A stretch of 64,000 bases of DNA from Flavobacteriales bacterium (lineage in GTDB: Bacteria > Bacteroidota > Bacteroidia > Flavobacteriales_F > PHOS-HE28): NCBI GenBank assembly GCA_026129465.1, contig JAHCIA010000001.1, forward strand, positions 939,964 to 1,003,963. The letters run 5' to 3'. The notes beneath the pieces are model-generated. The model was not told where the DNA came from. It ran no database searches and saw only the letters and a list, made by a program, of their open reading frames with translations. Below, piece after piece: positions 2,170 through 32,752 of this stretch (the stretch's first letter is position 1; every line of letters begins with the position of its first letter). The position numbers were made by a program, and so were the translations under genes.

Positions 2170-2197
2170 TGTGAAGGACATCCACCTCATCCCCAGC

Positions 2198-2223
2198 GCG
2201 CCTGCCTGACGGCAGTCAGGCGC
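2198..2223. repeat. REP-like imperfect palindrome
   Basis: A 26-base palindrome with outer arms GCGCCTG and CAGGCGC and an inner CTGAC/GTCAG pair around GGCA. It belongs to a family of CCTGCC/GGCAGG-type palindromes seen at several intergenic places in this window. It lies after the toxin gene and could form a stem-loop in the mRNA. Confidence 0.6.
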
Positions 2224-2304
2224 CCCATAGCGCATGATCCAGATGGAACTGCTCAACGAGCTGAGCAGCGCCGATCATCGCGGGCACGCGGGAAACTGGA
2301 AAAA

Positions 2305-2327
2305 CCTGCCTCTCCGGTAGGCGCAGG
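2305..2327. repeat. Degenerate REP-like palindrome
   Basis: CCTGCC, a loop containing TCTCCGG, then TAGGCGCAGG. This is a degenerate member of the same CCTGCC/GGCAGG palindrome family as 2198-2223. The 264 bases from 2170 to 2433 otherwise hold a short perfect 7-bp hairpin (CTGCTCA/TGAGCAG at about 2250-2269) and no convincing gene. Confidence 0.45.
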
Positions 2328-2433
2328 GTCGGCACCCCTTACAACCCTTTCCATGCCGTGTGGCCCAGTATCGCGGAAGCGCTCAGGCACCGATCCCTCC
2401 GAGCAACCCGACCTACCTTCAGGCTCGTCCCCA

Positions 2434-3915
2434 ATGCAACGGCCCCTTCTCATGCGCAACGCCCTACTCCTTTCCTGCTGCCTCCTCGCGTCGTTGATGC
2501 ACGCCCAAGTGCCCATCATCGACTACGACTTCCTGGCCGTGCCACCCAGTGTGCAGGTGAACAAGGTGGTGCCGCTGCCCGATGGCCGGATCCTCGTGGG
2601 CGGCTTCTTCATGAACTACGCGGGCAGCGGCAAGAACCATCTGGTGCGGCTGAACAACGATGGCACGGTGGACGCCTCCTGGAACACCAGTGGCGCGGGA
2701 CCCTCCAACCAGGTGATGGACATCGCCGTGATGAGCGACGGCCGCATCGTGATCGCGGGCAATTTCGTCACCTACAACGGGGTGAACAGCTACTTCATCA
2801 CGCGCCTGCTGCCCAACGGCGACCGGGATCCCACCTTCAACATACCGCCCAACGCCATCAACGGCGCGGTGCTGGCCATCGATGTCCAGAGCCACAACAA
2901 GGTGGTGGCCGTGGGCGAGTTCTTCGTGTGCTACGGGCACAGCATGCCATATATCGCCCGCTTCCTCGTCGATGGGGCGGTGGATCTGGCCTTCGACATC
3001 GGCTCAGGCTTCAATGCGGTGACACGCGATGTGCTGGTGCTGCCCGATGACCGCATCCTGGTGGGCGGCGACTTCGGCAGTTACAACGGCAACAGCAGCT
3101 GGGGGCTGGCCTTGCTCACGGCTGAGGGGCCCTACGACACCGGCATGGTGATGGACCCCGGCTTCACCGGAGGCTTCGGCACGGTGCGCAAGGTGATGCG
3201 CCAGCCCAACGGGAAGATCATCGTGGGAGGCTCCTTCGCCTTCCACAATGGGCAGCCCTCGCATGCCCTGGCACGCATCCACCTGGACGGATCGCGCGAT
3301 CCCGCGTTCACCTCGCCGTTCTATCCCTTTGCGGGCATCCTCGCACTGGCGGTGGATGATGCGGGCCACGTCTTCGCCGGCGGCGAGTTCACCGACGGGA
3401 TGTACGACCCCAACGTGCCCGGACCAGGCCGTTTCATCCGTCTGCAGCCCAATGGAACGCGCGACGATGTTGCTTACGACGTGGGTGAAGGACCCGGCCC
3501 CGGCCAGGAGCCCACCTCGTTCGTGCGCGACATCGCCATCCAAACTGATGGAAAGGTCCTGTTGGGCGGCTTCTTCGGCAGCTTTCACAACCCAGCCGAG
3601 ACGCAATACCGCAACCTGATCCGCCTGCACCCGGAGGCCGCCACCGGCATCGACGAAAGCGGCGCGGCGCTCAATCTGCATGTACTGGTGGATACCAACA
3701 CCGGTGAACTCCTCGTCACCGACCCCTTCGGCACACCCGGCAGCACCCTTCGCCTGCACGATGCCGTTGGACGGCTACTGCTTGAGCGCAGCCTGCCTCC
3801 TACTGACGGCGCACCGGTACGCGTCGGCCACGGGCTGCCCGCAGGCACTTACGTGGTGGGTATCACCAACGGAGGGCGACTGGCCCACGCCAGGGTGGTG
3901 ACGGGTACTTGGTGA
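2434..3915 (+). CDS. Secreted delta-60-repeat protein with T9SS-type C-terminus
   Basis: A 493-residue exported protein. A signal peptide (MRNALLLSCCLLASLMHAQ) follows the start; ATG 2434 or ATG 2452 are both possible. The putative promoter octamer TACCTTCA at 2414-2421 excludes the longer frame beginning at 2353. The body consists of repeated blocks of about 50-60 residues with the delta-60 pattern (DGRILVGGFF, NGxxDPTF, DDRILVGGDFGSYNG, NGKIIVGGSF), which fold into a beta-propeller-like structure. The last 90 residues (from about TGIDESG) look like a T9SS type A sorting domain, with a beta-rich fold ending GLPAGTYVVGIT. It is probably surface-attached or released; ligand unknown. A stand-alone gene. 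Confidence 0.82.
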   Translation: MQRPLLMRNALLLSCCLLASLMHAQVPIIDYDFLAVPPSVQVNKVVPLPDGRILVGGFFMNYAGSGKNHLVRLNNDGTVDASWNTSGAGPSNQVMDIAVMSDGRIVIAGNFVTYNGVNSYFITRLLPNGDRDPTFNIPPNAINGAVLAIDVQSHNKVVAVGEFFVCYGHSMPYIARFLVDGAVDLAFDIGSGFNAVTRDVLVLPDDRILVGGDFGSYNGNSSWGLALLTAEGPYDTGMVMDPGFTGGFGTVRKVMRQPNGKIIVGGSFAFHNGQPSHALARIHLDGSRDPAFTSPFYPFAGILALAVDDAGHVFAGGEFTDGMYDPNVPGPGRFIRLQPNGTRDDVAYDVGEGPGPGQEPTSFVRDIAIQTDGKVLLGGFFGSFHNPAETQYRNLIRLHPEAATGIDESGAALNLHVLVDTNTGELLVTDPFGTPGSTLRLHDAVGRLLLERSLPPTDGAPVRVGHGLPAGTYVVGITNGGRLAHARVVTGTW

Positions 3916-4364
3916 GTGTACAGGCTCCCTTCTTCCAGCCTTGGATGCGGTGCATGGAGGTGGTTCATGCGCTGCCACCGACAAGGCAGCAAGCTCATCC
4001 GAACGGAACCAGCCGTCGACGTGTTCCAAGCAGCCCACCTATGCGCTTGCTGCCACGAAGTGCATCTCCATCTCCCCCTTGCCCTTCGCCTGCACTTATC
4101 CGCGGGGGTGAAGGTGAATGCCTTGGTTGTCGGTTGTCCGTTGCCGGTTGTCAGGCAGCCTGACAACTGGGAACGGACAACTGACAACTCGCTCTTGCGT
4201 ACATCCTTCAGGAGCCGGTGTGGCCGGTGCGGGTCAGGAAGAAGGGTGGACCTGCGGCGAGAGCCTGCTGGACGGGTAGGCGGGGCAGGTGCGCCTCAAG
4301 GTCCTTTCCCGAGAGGGGGGCCGTGGTGCAAGCCAGCAAGAGCCGAAACTTGCTGGATCACCCT
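3916..4364. other. Intergenic stretch of 449 bases without a recognisable gene
   Basis: Open frames here do not resemble any known protein and overlap in several frames. The only structure seen is the long inverted repeat at 4126-4188. It separates the delta-60-repeat gene (plus) from the 3' end of the haem-binding-domain gene (minus), so it is a convergent intergenic region. Confidence 0.6.
4126..4188. repeat. Long inverted repeat with one-base loop, built of GTTGTC units
   Basis: Two arms of 31 bases (4126-4156 and 4158-4188) are complementary at 28 of 31 positions with a single A between them. Each arm contains the hexamer GTTGTC (or its complement) three times. It would form an almost perfect hairpin in RNA from either strand and lies between convergent genes. 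It may serve as a bidirectional terminator or be a repeat-derived element. Confidence 0.8.
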
Positions 4365-4895
4365 TCAGTCCTCGTCCTCCTCCTCGTGGTCCTCTTGCTG
4401 ATCATACGATCCAGGCGGGACGTCCTTGGCGGGCTCCTCCTGCTCCTGCTCCTCTTCTCCACCTGCCGCTTGCAGCCCATTGAACCAGTCCATCACGGCC
4501 TGGTGTTGCGCCGGTGTGAGCCGCGCATGGTCATGCATCCAGGTGTAGTTCTTCGGCGGCATCTCGTCTTCGGCCATCTCCTCCCCGCTTTCCGCGGCCG
4601 CCTCGCTGCCCCGGTACTGGTCCCAGCGTGAGAAGTTGAGCACCTCCCGCCCCTCGTCGATGTGGCGCTGCAGCCACCAGTTCACCGGTGTGATGCCCGC
4701 GTACCACGGGTATTCCGTCGCGTAGCTGTGGCAGTCGTAGCAGGCGCCCTTCACCCACGCCTGTATATCGGGTGGCGCCTGTTCCATGGCGAAGAGGTCC
4801 GCGGCCGGATCCACAGCGGGCACACTGCGGTCGGGGCGGATGAACTGTGCGACGAGCAGCACACCGAGGAGGATCGATAGCAGGCGCTTCAGCAT
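4365..4895 (-). CDS. Haem-binding domain protein (CxxCH) with acidic C-terminal tail
   Basis: A 176-residue protein; start chosen at MLKRLLSILLG, which gives an N-terminal membrane anchor or signal sequence directly. The core has one c-type haem motif CYDCH, followed by SYATEYPWYAGITPVNWWL and HIDEGREVLNFSRW. This is the standard pattern of the small Bacteroidota haem_bd domain (PF14376 family by recollection). The conserved PPKNYTWMHDHARLT follows, which may supply a distal haem ligand. The last 35 residues are almost all Glu, Asp and Gln (EEEQEQEEPAKD onward), an unusual acidic tail. It probably sits in the periplasm and carries electrons or senses redox state; no partner gene is nearby. 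Confidence 0.85.
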   Translation of the reverse strand: MLKRLLSILLGVLLVAQFIRPDRSVPAVDPAADLFAMEQAPPDIQAWVKGACYDCHSYATEYPWYAGITPVNWWLQRHIDEGREVLNFSRWDQYRGSEAAAESGEEMAEDEMPPKNYTWMHDHARLTPAQHQAVMDWFNGLQAAGGEEEQEQEEPAKDVPPGSYDQQEDHEEEDED

Positions 4896-24236: not shown

Positions 24237-26288
24237 ATGCCTTTCCAGCTCGTTTCCGAATTCACCCCCACGGGCGACCAGCCCGAGGCCATCCGCCAGT
24301 TGGTGGAGGGGCTCAACGAAGGGGTGCCCGCGCAGACCCTGCTGGGCGTCACCGGCAGCGGCAAGACCTTCACGGTGGCCAACGTCATCGCCCAGGTGGA
24401 CAGACCCACGCTGGTGCTGAGCCACAACAAGACCCTGGCGGCGCAGCTCTACGGGGAGTTCAAGCACTTCTTCCCGCACGACCGGGTGGAGTACTTCGTG
24501 AGCTACTACGACTACTACCAGCCGGAGGCCTACCTGCCCACGACGAACACCTACATCGAGAAGGACCTCTCGATCAACGACGAGATCGAGAAGCTGCGAT
24601 TGAGCGCCACCGGTGCCTTGCTCAGCGGTCGCCGCAACGTGATCGTGGTGGCCAGTGTGAGTTGCATCTACGGCATCGGCAACCCGGTGGAGTTCCACAA
24701 GACCATGGTGGAACTGCGGGTGGGCCAGCGGATCACGCGCAACATGCTGTTGCACCAGTTGGTCACCGCGCTGTACAGCCGCCGCGACCAGGACCCGGCG
24801 CGCGGCCACTTCCGCGTGCGCGGCGATGTGGTGGAGGTGTATCTGGCCAATGCCGACGAGGGCATCCGCATCCATTTCTGGGGCGACGAGATCGAACGCA
24901 TGGAACGCTTCGGGATCCCCGACACGCGCACCATCGAGGTGGAGGAGCAGGTGACGATCTACCCGGCGAACATCTTCGTGACCAGCAAGGACACGATGAA
25001 CGCCGCGCTGGATGCCATCCGGGAGGACATGGAGAAGCAGGTGGCCTTCTTCAAGGAGATCGGCAAGCACCTGGAAGCGAAACGGCTGGAGGAGCGCGTG
25101 CTGTACGATCTGGAGATGATGCGCGAACTGGGCTACTGCAGCGGCATCGAGAACTACAGCCGCTATTTCGACCAGCGCCAGACCGGACAGCGCCCCTTTT
25201 GTTTGCTGGACTACTTCCCGGACGACTACCTGATGGTGATCGACGAGAGCCACGTGACGGTGAGCCAGGTGAACGCCATGTACGGCGGGGACAGGAGTCG
25301 CAAGCGGAACCTGGTGGAGTATGGCTTCCGCCTGCCCAGCGCCATGGACAACCGGCCGCTGAAATTCGAGGAATTCGAGGGCATGTTCGGCCAGGTGATC
25401 TTCGTGAGCGCCACCCCGGCCGACTATGAGCTGGAGCGCAGCGAGGGCGTGGTGGTGGAACAGGTGGTGCGCCCCACCGGCCTGTTGGACCCACCGATCG
25501 AAGTGCGCCCCAGCCACGACCAGATCGACGACCTGCTGGACGAGATCCGCCACCGGGCCAAGCGCGACGAACGCGTGCTGGTGACCACCCTCACCAAGCG
25601 CATGGCCGAGGAGCTCGACGAGTTCCTGAAGAAGAACGGCGTGAAGTGCAAGTACATCCACAGCGACGTGGAGACCCTGGAGCGCATCGAGATCCTTCGC
25701 CAGTTGCGGCTGGGCATGATCGACGTGCTGGTGGGCGTGAACCTGCTGCGCGAAGGGCTGGACCTGCCCGAGGTGAGCCTGGTGGCCGTGCTGGACGCCG
25801 ACAAGGAGGGCTTTTTGCGCAGCGGCCGGTCATTGACCCAGACCGCCGGCCGCGCGGCCCGCAACGTGAACGGCCTGGTGATCTTCTACGCCGACAAGGT
25901 CACCGAAAGCATGCGGCAGACCATCGACGAGACCGAGCGGCGCCGCGCCAAGCAACTGGCCTACAACGCCGAGCATGGCATCACCCCCACGCAGATACGC
26001 CGCGACCGGGGCGATGTGATGAAGCAGACCGCCGTGATCGACATCCACGACACGGAGAAGAAGCGCGCCTATTATGTGGAGCCCGAGGAACTGAGCCTGG
26101 CGGCCGATCCGGTGATGGCCTACATGACCGCCGACCAGTTGGAGAAGAATGTGCAGTTGTTGGAGAGCCAGATGCGCAAGGCCGCCAGGGAACTGGACTT
26201 CATCGCCGCGGCGCAATTGCGAGACGAGCTCTTCGCCATGCGCAAGCTGCTGGAGGAAAGACAGAAGGTCTCCAAGGAACAGCCCTGA
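24237..26288 (+). CDS. uvrB: Excinuclease ABC subunit B (UvrB)
   Basis: 683 residues, the normal length. UvrB verifies DNA damage handed over by UvrA and recruits UvrC. Visible: Walker A GVTGSGKTFTVAN (about residue 40), the damage-probing beta-hairpin YYDYYQPEAYLPTTNTYIEK, the DEAD-like box VIDESHV, and helicase motifs V-VI (VGVNLLREGLDLPEVSLV; SLTQTAGRAARN). The C-terminal UVR domain (LEKNVQLLESQMRKAARELDFIAAAQLRDEL) binds UvrC. Stands alone; uvrA and uvrC are not in the window, as usual in Bacteroidota. Confidence 0.98.
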   Translation: MPFQLVSEFTPTGDQPEAIRQLVEGLNEGVPAQTLLGVTGSGKTFTVANVIAQVDRPTLVLSHNKTLAAQLYGEFKHFFPHDRVEYFVSYYDYYQPEAYLPTTNTYIEKDLSINDEIEKLRLSATGALLSGRRNVIVVASVSCIYGIGNPVEFHKTMVELRVGQRITRNMLLHQLVTALYSRRDQDPARGHFRVRGDVVEVYLANADEGIRIHFWGDEIERMERFGIPDTRTIEVEEQVTIYPANIFVTSKDTMNAALDAIREDMEKQVAFFKEIGKHLEAKRLEERVLYDLEMMRELGYCSGIENYSRYFDQRQTGQRPFCLLDYFPDDYLMVIDESHVTVSQVNAMYGGDRSRKRNLVEYGFRLPSAMDNRPLKFEEFEGMFGQVIFVSATPADYELERSEGVVVEQVVRPTGLLDPPIEVRPSHDQIDDLLDEIRHRAKRDERVLVTTLTKRMAEELDEFLKKNGVKCKYIHSDVETLERIEILRQLRLGMIDVLVGVNLLREGLDLPEVSLVAVLDADKEGFLRSGRSLTQTAGRAARNVNGLVIFYADKVTESMRQTIDETERRRAKQLAYNAEHGITPTQIRRDRGDVMKQTAVIDIHDTEKKRAYYVEPEELSLAADPVMAYMTADQLEKNVQLLESQMRKAARELDFIAAAQLRDELFAMRKLLEERQKVSKEQP

Positions 26289-26382: not shown

Positions 26383-27960
26383 ATGATGAAAACCCTACCC
26401 TTTTCCCGCCTCCTGGCCCTCGGGCTCGTGCTTCCCTTCACCCTGCATGCCTTCGCGCAGGAATCTTTCGGTGGCATTCCCGCAGTGGAGCGCGTCGGCG
26501 CCCAACTCCCGGATGCCCCCCTGGCGGTGATGCCCGCCGTGGATGTGGACGCGTTGCTGGCCGAGGACGAGGCCCGCATCGCCCAAGGCATCAAGGGTCC
26601 TTACCGCTTCGGATTCGACCATCAAGTGGAGCTTTCCGTGGAGAACAGCGGCGCCTGGCACACGATGCCCAATGGCGACCGGGTGTGGCGGCTGGCGATC
26701 CAGTGCCCGGGTGCCTTGAGCGTGAACTTCGAGTTCCACGATTACTTCCTGCCCGAAGGTGCGGAGGTGTTCGTGTACAACGAATACGAGACGCTCGGCG
26801 CCTTCACCATGGCCAGTTCCGGCGGCCAGGAAAGCATGGGCGTGACGCCGATCCCGGGGGAGACCATCACCATCGAGTACATCGAGCCCGCTGCTGTATC
26901 GGGCCAGGGCCGTTTGATGATCGGCCAGGTGACGCACGCCTACCGCGACGTCTTCGGCCTCTCCAAGGGCTTCGGCGACAGCGGTGCCTGCAACAACAAC
27001 GTGAAGTGCCCGATGGGCGATCCCTGGCGCGACCAGATCCGCTCGGTGGCCATCATCGTGGCCGGTGGTGGCATCTGCACGGGACAGATGGTGAACAATT
27101 GCGCGCAGGACGCCACGCCCTACTTCCTCACCGCGCGCCACTGCCTGCCCAGCAACCAGAACGTGAACAACTGGGTGTACCGCTTCAACTGGGAAAGCCC
27201 CGCCTGCACCCCCTCGCAGAACGGCCCCACCAACCAGACGGTGAGCGGTTCCCAACTGCTGGCCCAGGTGGCCAATGCCGATGCGGCACTGATCCGCTTC
27301 AACAACCCGGTACCCGTCGGTTACAATGTGTTCTACAGCGGTTGGGACAAGAGTGGCACGGCGCCCACCAACTCCATCGCCATCCACCACCCCAGCGGCG
27401 ACGTGAAGAAGATCAGCTTCGACAACAACGCCGCGGTCACGGCCACCTTCGGCGGTGCGCAGTGCTGGCGCATCCTCAACTGGGAGAGCGGCACCACAGA
27501 GCCCGGCTCCAGTGGCAGCGGACTTTGGAACCAAGCGGGTCTGTTGGTAGGCCAACTCTACGGCGGCCAGGCCAGCTGCGCCAACAACGTGAACGACTAC
27601 TACGGCAAGCTGAGCGTGAGCTACCCCTCCTTCCAGCAGTGGCTGGGCAATTGCGGCAACACCCTGTTGGGCTACCCGATCAACGTGGGCATCGATGACC
27701 TGGCCGGGACGGACGGCGGCCCGGTGCTGGCACCCAACCCCACGGACGGCTTGGTCACTCTCGCCTGGGACGAACCGCTGAACTCCGCGGGCGTGCTGCT
27801 GGTGCGCGATGCCACGGGCCGCGTGCTGCAGGAGCGCAACCTGCCCGGTGGGCTGGACCGCCTGGCGCTGGACCTGCGCAGCTACGCGCCGGGCTTGTAC
27901 CTGTTGGAGACCCGGCAGGGTGGCCTCAGCGTCACGCAGCGCCTGGTGATCGAGCGCTGA
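26383..27960 (+). CDS. Secreted trypsin-like serine protease with T9SS sorting domain
   Basis: 525 residues; ATG 26383 (or 26386) opens a signal peptide (MKTLPFSRLLALGLVLPFTLHAFAQ). Residues about 85-190 form an N-terminal domain (HTMPNGDRVWRLAIQCPGA… to GRLMIGQVTHAYRD) that probably acts as propeptide. The protease domain follows with catalytic His253 (FLTARHC), Asp300 (NADAALIRF) and Ser377 (GSSGSGLW), in the manner of lysyl endopeptidase-like enzymes. Several Cys pairs would form disulfides. The last 80 residues (VLAPNPTDGLVTL… SVTQRLVIER) are a T9SS type A sorting domain. The next gene shares the N-terminal domain. Function: extracellular protein digestion. Confidence 0.9.
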   Translation: MMKTLPFSRLLALGLVLPFTLHAFAQESFGGIPAVERVGAQLPDAPLAVMPAVDVDALLAEDEARIAQGIKGPYRFGFDHQVELSVENSGAWHTMPNGDRVWRLAIQCPGALSVNFEFHDYFLPEGAEVFVYNEYETLGAFTMASSGGQESMGVTPIPGETITIEYIEPAAVSGQGRLMIGQVTHAYRDVFGLSKGFGDSGACNNNVKCPMGDPWRDQIRSVAIIVAGGGICTGQMVNNCAQDATPYFLTARHCLPSNQNVNNWVYRFNWESPACTPSQNGPTNQTVSGSQLLAQVANADAALIRFNNPVPVGYNVFYSGWDKSGTAPTNSIAIHHPSGDVKKISFDNNAAVTATFGGAQCWRILNWESGTTEPGSSGSGLWNQAGLLVGQLYGGQASCANNVNDYYGKLSVSYPSFQQWLGNCGNTLLGYPINVGIDDLAGTDGGPVLAPNPTDGLVTLAWDEPLNSAGVLLVRDATGRVLQERNLPGGLDRLALDLRSYAPGLYLLETRQGGLSVTQRLVIER

Positions 27961-27981
27961 GCGAGCAAAGAATGATGTGAA

Positions 27982-28020
27982 CGGCACCTGTCCAGGGCAA
28001 CGAAGCCCGGGCAGGTGCCG
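27982..28020 (+). terminator. Stem-loop between the two T9SS genes
   Basis: CGGCACCTGTCC (27982-27993) pairs with GGGCAGGTGCCG (28009-28020) at 11 of 12 positions around a 15-base loop, starting 21 bases after the protease stop. No T-run follows, so termination is probable but not certain. Confidence 0.55.
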
Positions 28021-28078
28021 TCCCACTTCCGGCCCGGGCCGAGGTGCCCGCCTATCTTCACGCCACAAACCGAACCCC

Positions 28079-29977
28079 ATGCACCGCACGTTGCGCAACC
28101 TGGCGATCGCGGCCTTCGCGCTTCCCTGCACCACCACCATGGCCCAGCAGGCCTTTGGCGGCCAGCCCTTCGGCCTGATGCCCCATTTGACCGGCCTGCC
28201 CGCGCCACCCGTGGTGACCGTGGACCAGCCCACCAGCGGCCACACGCGCGCCCTGTCACTGGACCTTTTGACCGAGGCGATCGAGCATACCATGCCCAAC
28301 GGCGATCGGCTTTGGCGGCTCTCGCTGCATGCACCAGGTGCCGTGGCGCTGGGCATCTCCTTCGATGCCTTCGAGGTGCCCTATGGCGGTCTTGTCTTCC
28401 TCTACAATGAAGCCGGCCAACAACTTGGCGCCTACATGACGGCCAGCTTGGATGGTGCTCCCATCTTGCGCACACCGCGGCTGCCGGGTAACCGCATCAC
28501 CGTGGAGTACTATGAGCCCCTGGAGGTGCAGGGCGAAGGAGCGATCCGCATCGGAGCGGTGCACCTGCTGGACGCCAACAACGGCCCCGGACGTGCGATG
28601 ACGGAACAGGAGGACGGCGCGCCCAAGGGTGCCGGTTGCACCGTGACCCCTCCACCCGAAGTGGACATCCTGAGCATCGAATACCAGATCGTCATCGCGC
28701 AGGACCCCTTCTGCTGTTTCGACGATTGGGATGACATGTGCCAGGAAGCCTACGATCTGCTCACAGGCGGATGCCCCGCCGTGCCACCTTCCACGGTGGA
28801 CACCAACAGCCAGGCCTACCTGCTCACCATCCTGGAAGACCCCTACTGCTGCGAGGTGGAGTGGGACGCCATCTGCCAGACCGCCTACGAAGGTTTCGGC
28901 GGCACCACGCCTGTGGAATGCGCGGTGGTCCCACCGGCCGAAGTGGATGTGGCGAGCGCGGAATACCTGCTGGTGATCGCGGCCTATCCGGGATGTTGCA
29001 CCACGGCCTGGACCAGCGAATGCACGGACGCCTACAACGATCTGGTGACGCCGCCCGTGCCCGACCTGGATGCGGCCATCACCTCCATCGTGGACCTTCC
29101 CGATCTGGTCTGCGGTGAGGACCATATCGCGCCCCGTGTCACCATCAAGAACAACGGCACCACGGTGATCACCTCCGTGATCGTGATCTATGGCATTGGC
29201 GGCCAGGCACCGGCCCTGGATGTCTGGAACGGCTCACTCCTGCCGGGCCAGACCTACAACCACGACCTGCCACCCTACACGGTGCCATCCGCCGAGAATC
29301 TACTCACCGTCTCCAGCAATTCCCCCAACGGTCTCCCCGACCAGGTGCCGGACAATGACACGTGGAGCAAGGAGTTCTTCATGAGCTTCCCTTCGGAGAA
29401 CATGGACCTGCTGCTCACTCCCGACAATTGGGGATCGGATATCACGTGGACGCTGCATTCGGAGGCCGGCACCCTGCTATACAGCGGCGGGCCCTACGCC
29501 AACAACCAGAGCGGGCAGACCATGACGATCCCCTTCTGCCTGACGAACGGTTGCTTCACCTTCACCATCAACGACCTTTTCGGCGATGGCATCTGCTGCA
29601 GCAGTGGCCAGGGCGAATATGTGATCGTGAACGAGGAGGGCCACGTCTATGCGCAGAGCGACGGCCAGTATGGCTTGCAGAACATCGATGAGATCTGCCT
29701 CAGCGCGGTCTCGGTACCGGAAGTGGCGGGCATGGGCGCGCTGGGCGTGTACCCCAATCCCACCGATGGCCTGGTGACGGTGACGCTGGCCGGGCTGGAG
29801 GGTCCGGTGGCGCTGCAACTGACCGATGGCACGGGCCGTCTGGTCCGCGAAACGATGCTGCCACAAGCCGCTCCATGGACCACGGTGGATCTGCGCGGAC
29901 TGGCGCGTGGGGTCTACCTCCTCACCGCGATGCATGCGCAGGGCCGCGTGGCGCAACGCGTGGTGCTGGACCGGTGA
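28079..29977 (+). CDS. Secreted T9SS protein with protease-type N-domain and CC-W-C repeats
   Basis: 632 residues, signal peptide MHRTLRNLAIAAFALPCTTTMAQQ; start follows TATCTTCA (28053-28060). Residues about 62-165 (EHTMPNGDRLWRLSLHAPGA… EGAIRIGAVHLL) match the N-terminal domain of the upstream protease in order and motif. There is no protease domain after it. Instead come three repeats at about 209, 254 and 303 (DPFCCFDDWDDMC, DPYCCEVEWDAIC, YPGCCTTAWTSEC). A CARDB-like domain (ITSIVDLPDLVCGEDHIAPRVTIKNNG) follows, then a beta domain with GDGICCSSGQGEYVIV, and a T9SS sorting domain (VYPNPTDGLVTVTL… RVVLDR). A surface or released protein, function unknown; possibly substrate-binding. Confidence 0.87.
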   Translation: MHRTLRNLAIAAFALPCTTTMAQQAFGGQPFGLMPHLTGLPAPPVVTVDQPTSGHTRALSLDLLTEAIEHTMPNGDRLWRLSLHAPGAVALGISFDAFEVPYGGLVFLYNEAGQQLGAYMTASLDGAPILRTPRLPGNRITVEYYEPLEVQGEGAIRIGAVHLLDANNGPGRAMTEQEDGAPKGAGCTVTPPPEVDILSIEYQIVIAQDPFCCFDDWDDMCQEAYDLLTGGCPAVPPSTVDTNSQAYLLTILEDPYCCEVEWDAICQTAYEGFGGTTPVECAVVPPAEVDVASAEYLLVIAAYPGCCTTAWTSECTDAYNDLVTPPVPDLDAAITSIVDLPDLVCGEDHIAPRVTIKNNGTTVITSVIVIYGIGGQAPALDVWNGSLLPGQTYNHDLPPYTVPSAENLLTVSSNSPNGLPDQVPDNDTWSKEFFMSFPSENMDLLLTPDNWGSDITWTLHSEAGTLLYSGGPYANNQSGQTMTIPFCLTNGCFTFTINDLFGDGICCSSGQGEYVIVNEEGHVYAQSDGQYGLQNIDEICLSAVSVPEVAGMGALGVYPNPTDGLVTVTLAGLEGPVALQLTDGTGRLVRETMLPQAAPWTTVDLRGLARGVYLLTAMHAQGRVAQRVVLDR

Positions 29978-29984
29978 CGGACGT

Positions 29985-30647
29985 TCAGTAGCGAAGCAGG
30001 TAGTACACCAGCTTCACGTACTCGTTGTTCACCATCAGGAGGCCCTCCTCACTACGCCACCATTGGCGGTGATCGTAACGGTCGCTGGTGGCACCATGCA
30101 ACAGCACGGTCATGCCTTCCTTCGCGAAGCGCTTGCGGAAAACGCGCCGCACCCGCCTGAGGTGGAACTCCGTGGACACGACGGTGATGGTGTCGTGCCC
30201 CAGCATCCAGGCATGCAGGAATATCGCGTTGGATTCCTCCCAGGTGCTGGTGCCCCTTGGCAACAGCTGCACGCGGGCGCTGTCCGCCCCGGCCCGGAGG
30301 GCGGCCATGCGGCTGAGCTCCGCCTCGTTCCATGTGAAGCCCGCCGCCTCCAGCACGGTGGGGATGTTCGAGCCCGTGCAGTAGGCCACTGGCGCCAGGC
30401 CGCGATCCAGCAGGTGGGCCGCCGCAAGGCCACGCTCCAACGGCGATCCGCCCAGCACATAGATGGCGTCGCATCGCATCTGGGGGTCGGGCGTGATGAG
30501 GTGGTCGCCTACCGCGCGCAACAAAGGCCGCCGCACCAGCCAGCAGGTGGTCAGCAACAATAATAGGCCGATGACCGATAGCACCAAGCGGCCAGAGAAA
30601 CGCTCGCGCAGACCGCTGAGGCGGCCGGCAGGTCCATCATGTTTCAT
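29985..30647 (-). CDS. YdcF family protein (DUF218)
   Basis: 220 residues. Start at MKHDGPAG gives one N-terminal transmembrane helix (LVLSVIGLLLLLTTCWLV), with TACATTTC 4 bases before the ATG; the longer frame to 30740 lies within the neighbouring VWA-type gene. The DUF218 fold shows CDAIYVLGGSPLERGLAAAHLL, VAYCTGSNIPTV, STWEESNAIFLHAWMLG, ITVVSTEFHLRRVRRVF. Family members (YdcF, SanA, ElyC) act at the envelope in peptidoglycan or lipid-carrier metabolism, and YdcF binds SAM; the exact role here is open. Convergent with the preceding T9SS gene with 7 bases between. Confidence 0.88.
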   Translation of the reverse strand: MKHDGPAGRLSGLRERFSGRLVLSVIGLLLLLTTCWLVRRPLLRAVGDHLITPDPQMRCDAIYVLGGSPLERGLAAAHLLDRGLAPVAYCTGSNIPTVLEAAGFTWNEAELSRMAALRAGADSARVQLLPRGTSTWEESNAIFLHAWMLGHDTITVVSTEFHLRRVRRVFRKRFAKEGMTVLLHGATSDRYDHRQWWRSEEGLLMVNNEYVKLVYYLLRY

Positions 30648-30667
30648 ATGGGAAATGTAGTACGGCC

Positions 30668-32752
30668 TCAATAGGCGCCATGGCGGCGGCGAAGCACCCA
30701 CTCCAACGCGAGCAGTCCCAGCAGCACGAAGAACAACCACCGCAGGCCGATGAGGTCGCTGAAGCTGGCCTGCACGTAGGAACGCGCCACCAGCCCGGGA
30801 CGCTCCCTGATCGCCGCTTCCAGCGCTTCCATCGCCTCGGGCGCGAACATCATTCCTCCGGTGCGCACCGCCAGGTCCTCCAACAGACCATGGTCGGCCG
30901 CTGTATTGAGTCGCTCCGCCACCAGGCCCTTCACAAGCAGTTCGCCCTTCGCGGTGAAGCGTTGTCCGTCGAATGGGGCGGACGCCTGCCAGGCATAGCG
31001 GCCAGGAGGAAGGCGGCCGGCATCCAGGCGATAGGCATTGCCTGCGCGGAGGAAGGCGTAGGGGTAGTCGCGCCCGTCCTCATCGGTGAGCGTGATCGCG
31101 GCCTCCGGCGTGTTCACCAGCTCATAGGTGGCATCATAGAGTTCGGCCCGCATGAGGATCCGCTCATTCTCCAGGAATACCGGCGCATGGTCCACGCGGA
31201 AGCGGCTCCGATCGGCCTTCAGCGCCAGGTATTGTGCGAGTTTGTGCACGAGCCGGTCGAAGCGTACATGCGAGCCGTTCTGCTGCAGGTCCGCCGAGCG
31301 CCAACGCCAAAGACCTTCCCCGGCGAAGACCGCCGTGCGCCTTTCGCCCTGCTGCTGCACCACGAGCAGGGGCTGCTCCGTGCGTACCGCGCCGATCCGT
31401 TGGCGCATCATGGCCGTGGCGGAGCGTCCCAGTTCGTACTGGCCAAAAGGCGCCTGCAACGGCGGGAAACGTTCGAAGGCCCGCACCTGGTCCTCGTCCA
31501 GCGCGAAGGCCGTGGCGCCGCGGTCCACCAGCGCATGCACATCGCTGTGCGCGGCGCGGCCGCCCATGACGCGCATGCCGGCGCCCTGCGCATTGAAAGC
31601 GTTGAGGTCCATGCCCGGCCCCAGGATGAACAGCACCGGAATGCCCTTCTCGCGCGCCCGGGCGAGCAGCCCTTCGACAGGGTGCTTCGGCGATGGCAAC
31701 CGGTGCAGCACGATGAGATCGAAGGCCTCGGCGCTGCCGGTGAAGTCCGCCGCGAAACGCAGCTCCGAACCGTAACCCTCCATACCACCGAGCGCCAGCC
31801 GCAAGGCGCCCAGGTCGGGATGTGGCGCATCGCCAAGCAACAGGATCTTCTGCCGGTCGTCCAGCACGTCGATGTACACGTCCATGCTGTTGTTCAGGTC
31901 GGTGTCCTCCCGGTCCAGCGGGCGCACCGTCACCGTGTAGCGCTGCAGGCCGGGTTTCTCCGTGCGGATGGTGAAGGGCAGCTCGGCGATGAAGGGATCA
32001 CCGGTGATGCGTACCTCCTGCGAGGCGATCTCGCGGCCACTGCTGCTGACCGTCACGCGCGTGGAAGCACCCACCAACCGCCGCGCCTCGATGCGGGCCA
32101 GCAGGGGGAAGTCATTGCCGAGATAGCTGATGCGGTTGTGCTCCACGTCCTTCAGCAGCAGGTCCGGCCGCACGGTGGTATCGCCCAGCGCGATGGTGAA
32201 AACGGGCACACCAAGGCGCGCTGCCTCCAGGCGCGGATCACGTCCCCGGTTGTGGATGCCATCGCCGGTCAGCACCACGGCGCCCAGATCGGGTCCGCTG
32301 AAACGATCGTAGGCTTCGCGCAGCAATTGGCTGATGTCGGTGAGCGCGTCCCCCTGTTCAAAGGACAGACCCTCGCGCACGTGGTCGCCATAGGTGAAGG
32401 TGCGCACGAGGAAACGGTCGGAAAGGCGCTCGGCCAGGTCTTCCAAAGCACTGCGGTAGGTGGTGCGCAAACGGGTCGTATCCCCGGCGAAGCGAAGTGA
32501 GGAAGAACCGTCGTGCGCGATCACCAGCACCGGCTTGCGCACATCGCGAAGCATGGTACGCACCATGGGTTCCAACAGGAAGAAGGCGATGAGCGCGATG
32601 GCCAACGCGCGCACCACCGCCAACCCGCGGGCCAGCCCCGGAGAAAAACCATCCCTGGCTCCCGCGCGCCGATACAGCCACCATGCCAGGGCCACGCCCA
32701 GCGCCAGACAAAGCGGCGCCAGCCAGAGGCTGTGGGCGGTGGTGAGGTCCAT
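30668..32752 (-). CDS. Large VWA-type membrane protein
   Basis: 694 residues. Two helices at the N-terminus (SLWLAPLCLALGVALAWWLY; VVRALAIALIAFFLLEPMV) and one at the C-terminus (DLIGLRWLFFVLLGLLALEWVL) enclose a periplasmic body. The body starts with a VWA-like domain: VLVIAHDGSSSL carries D-x-S-x-S, and VVLTGDGIHNRG a possible second metal-site loop. A middle part (about 330-450) resembles a class I glutamine-amidotransferase-like fold (FDLIVLHRLPSP; VLFILGPGMDLNAFN). The arrangement is typical for Bacteroidota BatA-like proteins of unknown role. The MoxR/DUF58 operon is 13 kb away. Follows YdcF on the same strand. Confidence 0.82.
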   Translation of the reverse strand: MDLTTAHSLWLAPLCLALGVALAWWLYRRAGARDGFSPGLARGLAVVRALAIALIAFFLLEPMVRTMLRDVRKPVLVIAHDGSSSLRFAGDTTRLRTTYRSALEDLAERLSDRFLVRTFTYGDHVREGLSFEQGDALTDISQLLREAYDRFSGPDLGAVVLTGDGIHNRGRDPRLEAARLGVPVFTIALGDTTVRPDLLLKDVEHNRISYLGNDFPLLARIEARRLVGASTRVTVSSSGREIASQEVRITGDPFIAELPFTIRTEKPGLQRYTVTVRPLDREDTDLNNSMDVYIDVLDDRQKILLLGDAPHPDLGALRLALGGMEGYGSELRFAADFTGSAEAFDLIVLHRLPSPKHPVEGLLARAREKGIPVLFILGPGMDLNAFNAQGAGMRVMGGRAAHSDVHALVDRGATAFALDEDQVRAFERFPPLQAPFGQYELGRSATAMMRQRIGAVRTEQPLLVVQQQGERRTAVFAGEGLWRWRSADLQQNGSHVRFDRLVHKLAQYLALKADRSRFRVDHAPVFLENERILMRAELYDATYELVNTPEAAITLTDEDGRDYPYAFLRAGNAYRLDAGRLPPGRYAWQASAPFDGQRFTAKGELLVKGLVAERLNTAADHGLLEDLAVRTGGMMFAPEAMEALEAAIRERPGLVARSYVQASFSDLIGLRWLFFVLLGLLALEWVLRRRHGAY

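Follow-up and report, generated by a model that had tools for sequence, protein, structure and literature searches.

The closest described relatives of the proteins discussed here are Achromobacter protease I (API) and Lysobacter LysC, which are represented by the structures 1arb, 4nsv, and 4nsy, and a lysyl endopeptidase that has been solved together with its propeptide (9omd). For another lysyl endopeptidase, protease IV of P. aeruginosa, it has been reported that the propeptide binds and inhibits the mature enzyme in trans (PMC5493658, PMC8549743). A propeptide fold can also occur in proteins without a protease, as in the propeptide-like protease inhibitors of family I29, such as CTLA-2alpha, crammer, and BCPI (PMC4089206).

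The window analyzed here, a stretch of 64,000 nucleotides from a Flavobacteriales bacterium, contains two adjacent genes whose products, P1 and P2, have a related N-terminal domain (N-domain). Like the Achromobacter and Lysobacter enzymes, P1 keeps the catalytic triad and six cysteines, but it differs from them by T9SS export with a tail of its own, while P2 is without any catalytic domain. As in the I29 inhibitors, the propeptide fold of P2 is not accompanied by a protease; however, these inhibitors belong to another protease class, and P2, a T9SS cargo, is large, has several domains, and has lost conserved edges of the prodomain. The long lysyl endopeptidases encoded in tandem pairs of the genus, for instance in G041 (locus L050), share with P2 the N-domain, a C-terminal part termed REST in the following, the T9SS tail, and the position of the gene. 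In contrast to these enzymes, P2 carries CCxxxWDxxC repeats (CC repeats) instead of the catalytic domain, and a 21-residue segment of the prodomain is gone. CC repeats and a T9SS tail are also found in a 1950-aa ORF of the same genome (G000) and in an 827-aa ORF of another genome of the genus (G030). Unlike P2, these proteins have no prodomain, and some of them bear the domains GBD_T9SS_assoc and GEVED.

The protease P1 and its neighbor P2

The sequence-only reading had described P1 as a trypsin-like protease with the triad H253/D300/S377. These residues are invariant among 56 aligned relatives, as are six Cys columns that correspond to the three disulfides of API in the alignment with 1arb. 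The catalytic domain matches API (1arb) with an E-value of 1.9e-34, the P1 profile matches Lysobacter LysC with an E-value of 1.5e-68, and a structural comparison with 4nsy_A by VIA-align gave a Z-score of 33.8 and an rmsd of 1.9 over 231 residues. In the 1arb alignment, Asp405 of P1 is aligned with Asp225 of API, the S1 aspartate setting Lys specificity. As judged from its sequence, P1 is a lysyl endopeptidase of the API type, for which Lys specificity is predicted. A Lys residue near the boundary of prodomain and protease is present in 72 of 103 relatives, which fits a self-processing of these relatives at this position.

The ORFs of P1 and P2 are both intact, lie on the + strand, and are separated by a spacer of 118 bp (Table 1). 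BLASTP aligned the two proteins with 30% identity over 284 aa (E 2e-23), the match being strongest in the N-domains, and the C-terminal tails matched separately (E 3e-11). In a search of the whole genome, the N-domain of P1 retrieved P2 with 42% identity and an E-value of 6e-22, so that the resemblance of the N-domains, which had been noticed from the letters alone, reflects homology and not chance. The tails of P1 and P2 reached 27.7 and 34.1 bits, respectively, with TIGR04183, which is above the curated cut-off of 23 bits and confirms the suggested T9SS sorting domains at both ends. The three CC repeats assigned to P2 are present as well, and comparisons with domains and with relatives found no protease match in this protein. 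The spacer has a fold z of -3.78, with none of 200 shuffles as stable, and contains a near-perfect hairpin. This hairpin may separate the expression of both genes.

Table 1. Positions of the features in the window
Feature	Position	Strand	Basis
uvrB, conserved upstream neighbor, synteny anchor	24237..26288	+	
P1, short paralog, predicted T9SS-secreted lysyl endopeptidase, N-protease-tail, 525 aa	26383..27960	+	intact ORF, protease and tail matches
P1 N-domain (prodomain), residues 25-192, ~168 aa	26455..26958	+	protease-linked in nearly all relatives
P1 residues 51-76 (helix 55-67 and KGPYRFG stretch), segment without counterpart in P2	26533..26610	+	alignment, P1 model
P1 K195, predicted Lys-C autoprocessing site before GFGDSGAC	26965..26967	+	aligned with 1arb mature start GVSGSC
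P1 catalytic domain (H253, D300, S377, Asp405, six invariant Cys)	26968..27657	+	alignment and VIA-align
P1 T9SS type A sorting domain	27730..27957	+	TIGR04183
GC-rich hairpin between P1 and P2, without T-run, possible terminator or attenuator	27981..28021	+	fold z
P2, 632 aa, orthologous to the long lysyl endopeptidase of the tandem but with other modules in place of the catalytic domain	28079..29977	+	alignment, synteny, trees
P2 N-domain (residues 23-162) with retained core and lost edges	28145..28564	+	alignment, tree, AF2
P2 K183 in predicted flexible linker, candidate P1 processing site	28625..28627	+	residue scan, AF2
P2 three CCxxxWDxxC repeats replacing the catalytic domain, residues 187-322	28637..29044	+	alignment
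P2 REST, C-terminal part common with the orthologous long protease, residues 323-545	29045..29713	+	alignment, tree
P2 T9SS type A sorting domain	29747..29965	+	TIGR04183
ydcF-like gene, conserved downstream neighbor, synteny anchor	29985..30740	-	

The N-domain as a protease prodomain

It had been considered beforehand that the N-domain may be the propeptide of the protease, and an N-domain occurring mainly with other neighbors and no protease had been named as the distribution that would contradict this. Such a distribution did not occur. Among relatives from the genus and the class, 104 ORFs with the N-domain were read, and all but P2 (103) have it fused to the protease; the same holds for 100 of 103 ORFs from the named genomes scanned and for 29 of 29 loci from a wider draw of the phylum, these three sets (104, 103, and 29) overlapping in part. 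The exceptions in the named-genome scan are one ORF that is cut by the end of a contig and two stand-alone copies of the N-domain in Neomarinimicrobiota. Besides P2, only two intact N-domain ORFs, both from one Neomarinimicrobiota genome, were read without a protease.

When the N-domain profile was searched against the PDB, the only match, a weak one with an E-value of 0.41, was chain 9omd_I, annotated as 'Lysyl endopeptidase propeptide'. The entry 9omd was absent among the structure matches listed by Foldseek and VIA-align for the zymogen model, and these lists were filled by the protease domain. None of the Pfam models matches the N-domain. Since almost every relative has it joined to the protease, the N-domain common to P1 and P2 is a protease prodomain. 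P2 would then, as the sequence-only reading had put it, carry a propeptide fold without a protease, which agrees with the absence of the catalytic stretch in the alignment.

In Candidatus Neomarinimicrobiota TS1B11 (SCKI01000001.1, locus L200), ORFs consisting only of the N-domain are located at positions 116-733 and 1253-1729, upstream of a complete N-protease ORF at 2191-4410. The second of these ORFs is truncated; in the first one, the conserved features of the prodomain are intact, and its product might be secreted as a propeptide on its own.

Replacement of the catalytic domain in P2

Many genomes of the genus have the gene order uvrB, short protease, long protease, ydcF, VWA, and SDR at this locus. 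The long protease of these relatives has the layout N-protease-REST-tail, and P2 occupies its slot between uvrB and ydcF/VWA/SDR. In a residue alignment with the long proteases, the N-domain, REST, and the tail of P2 align, and the catalytic stretch alone is swapped for CC repeats. REST of P2 is 61% identical to its best relative, the long protease of G041, and both are sisters in the REST tree with a support of 100/98 and branch lengths of 0.49 for P2 and 0.37 for the sister. Thus, the 'CARDB-like' and 'different beta domain', which the sequence-only reading had listed behind the N-domain and the repeats of P2, are not foreign but ancestral and already present as REST in the orthologous long protease. 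According to alignment, gene order, and trees, P2 is a former lysyl endopeptidase that exchanged nothing but its catalytic domain, in frame, for three CCxxxWDxxC repeats. Of the module exchange after tandem duplication that had been proposed, the exchange is supported by alignment and synteny, but a reshuffling of a fresh duplicate is not, since tandem pairs of this kind are old and widespread in the genus, and the second gene was already a full protease.

A replacement of the catalytic domain like that in P2 was found in none of the other orthologs read, and a contig scan revealed no relatives of full-length P2. The search for further fusions of the N-domain that had been suggested yielded the protease fusions described above and no combination with CC repeats elsewhere (none in 395 genomes of the class). 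A close sister genome of the source was not found, and the chimera rests on one genome. That a chimera seen once, in a public assembly, is an assembly artefact is nevertheless highly improbable, as both flanks derive from one gene, the reading frame continues across joints that coincide with domain borders, and the locus is situated in the middle of a 3.86-Mb contig. The CC stretch of P2 is, moreover, only about 40% identical to the other CC genes of the genome. The genome encodes only three lysyl endopeptidase domains, none of which is located in the long slot; since none of them is the lost domain, its relocation by an assembly error is disfavored.

CC repeats are encoded elsewhere in the genome by the 1950-aa ORF, which has 23 units, and by ORFs of 1025 aa and 924 aa. 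The closest repeats found are those of G030, where the first unit is 60% identical to that of P2; the long gene of G030 itself still has the protease domain. Outside the genus, CC repeats are rare, and two further genomes of the 395 from the class match in the repeats. AF2 predicts three short helices for a CC unit of P2 with a pLDDT of about 80-88, and the paired Cys and Trp positions are retained across its repeats. No Pfam model matches the repeats, no fold was matched to them in a structure search with P2, which was filled by the N-domain, and nothing relevant on the CC-W-C motif was found in the literature.

The 1950-aa T9SS ORF (L148 1590-7439, G000:C1:3167089-3172938) has several of its 23 CCxxxWDxxC repeats in near-identical blocks, and the 827-aa protein of G030 (L147 1209-3689, G030:C376) combines its repeats with GBD_T9SS_assoc and GEVED. 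The Lys content of CC-repeat T9SS proteins (window 28079-29974; L148, L149, L150) is 0.1-0.6%, compared to 4.4% in UvrB and SDR, with few proteins compared. These Lys-poor proteins share the genome with secreted Lys-specific proteases.

Changes in the prodomain and possible role of P2

Positions of the prodomain were counted as conserved when 80% or more of 100 copies linked to a protease retained them; the core comprises positions 94-183, and the edges comprise positions 50-92 and 184-188. The N-domain of P2 keeps 16 of 17 conserved positions in the core vs. 2 of 8 in the edges (Fisher p 0.001), and the lowest other sequence keeps 4 of the 8 edge positions. The losses include the helix segment 51-76, where a stretch of 21 residues that contains a helix in the P1 model is gone, as well as the motifs SGxW and HxYR. 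The branch of the P2 N-domain has a length of 1.19 changes per column compared to a median end branch of 0.18, and its exact place in the tree is therefore uncertain. The remaining core is predicted by AF2 with a pLDDT of 83-96. VIA-align found a similarity to CUB domains (Z up to 9.9, rmsd 3.3, 113 aligned residues), which indicates a shared fold and not a shared function; a CUB sequence match was not found with Pfam.

It was proposed earlier that P2 binds or inhibits P1. According to this explanation, P2 would act in trans as an inhibitor or chaperone, with the freed prodomain fold docking onto the catalytic domain of P1 and regulating it outside the cell. The lysyl endopeptidase prodomain in P2, the adjacency of both genes, and the precedents of protease IV and of propeptide-like inhibitor families such as I29 (PMC4089206) are in line with such a role. 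In addition, the N-domain of P2 contains no Lys and hence could not be cut by a Lys-specific protease. However, P2 has lost conserved prodomain features that occur in the protease-linked copies, its N-domain branch far exceeds those of its relatives, which a conserved binding to P1 would not predict, and P1 has a complete prodomain of its own. A role of P2 as inhibitor or chaperone is thus considered unlikely. With the core kept, the 21-residue segment and 6 of 8 edge positions lost, and a long branch, the balance favors a repurposed surface protein that is probably processed by P1.

P2 might also be a decaying or recently formed fusion without any role. The long branch of the N-domain, the restriction to a single genome, and the missing orthologous chimera would agree with this, and P2 may be a young gene that is heading for decay. 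Still, its 632 codons are open without a stop, REST has evolved with an ordinary branch length, GC3 is 0.79-0.85 across all parts of P2, and the repeats keep their paired Cys and Trp positions. A non-functional fusion is therefore regarded as improbable.

The only Lys within residues 1-356 of P2 is K183, which is situated in a linker stretch with a pLDDT below 50 in the AF2 model. The chance that a lone Lys falls within this 24-residue linker is about 8%, and K183 as a processing site of P1 is weakly supported and serves as a lead only.

The preferred explanation, which is held to be fairly probable, is that P2 is a former T9SS lysyl endopeptidase that became a non-enzymatic surface protein, while P1 keeps the proteolytic function. 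The ancestor of P2 was the long gene, in second place, of the old tandem and encoded prodomain, Lys-specific serine protease, REST, and sorting domain. In the in-frame exchange of the catalytic domain for three helical CC-W-C repeats, N-domain, REST, and tail were kept, and P2 would presumably be exported via T9SS as its ancestor was. With no active site left to guard, the N-domain could have become a CUB-like front module, which either still serves in binding or is cut off at K183 by P1 acting in trans. The disulfide-rich repeats and REST might then form a non-enzymatic protein with a binding or adhesive function at the cell surface, and P1 would represent the remaining proteolytic activity of the pair. 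A closer link between both proteins appears rather doubtful. In this case, P2 would be a T9SS-delivered partner with a prodomain that P1 cuts or that docks to P1, and P1 would thereby govern how P2 matures or is displayed.

P2 represents a clear case of a zymogen that has lost exactly its enzyme, while the prodomain, the accessory domain, and the secretion tail have stayed. From the kept and lost positions of its prodomain, a direct and testable guess can be made about the residues that point toward the protease in lysyl endopeptidases. As the example of P2 indicates, T9SS cargo proteins can swap single modules in frame.
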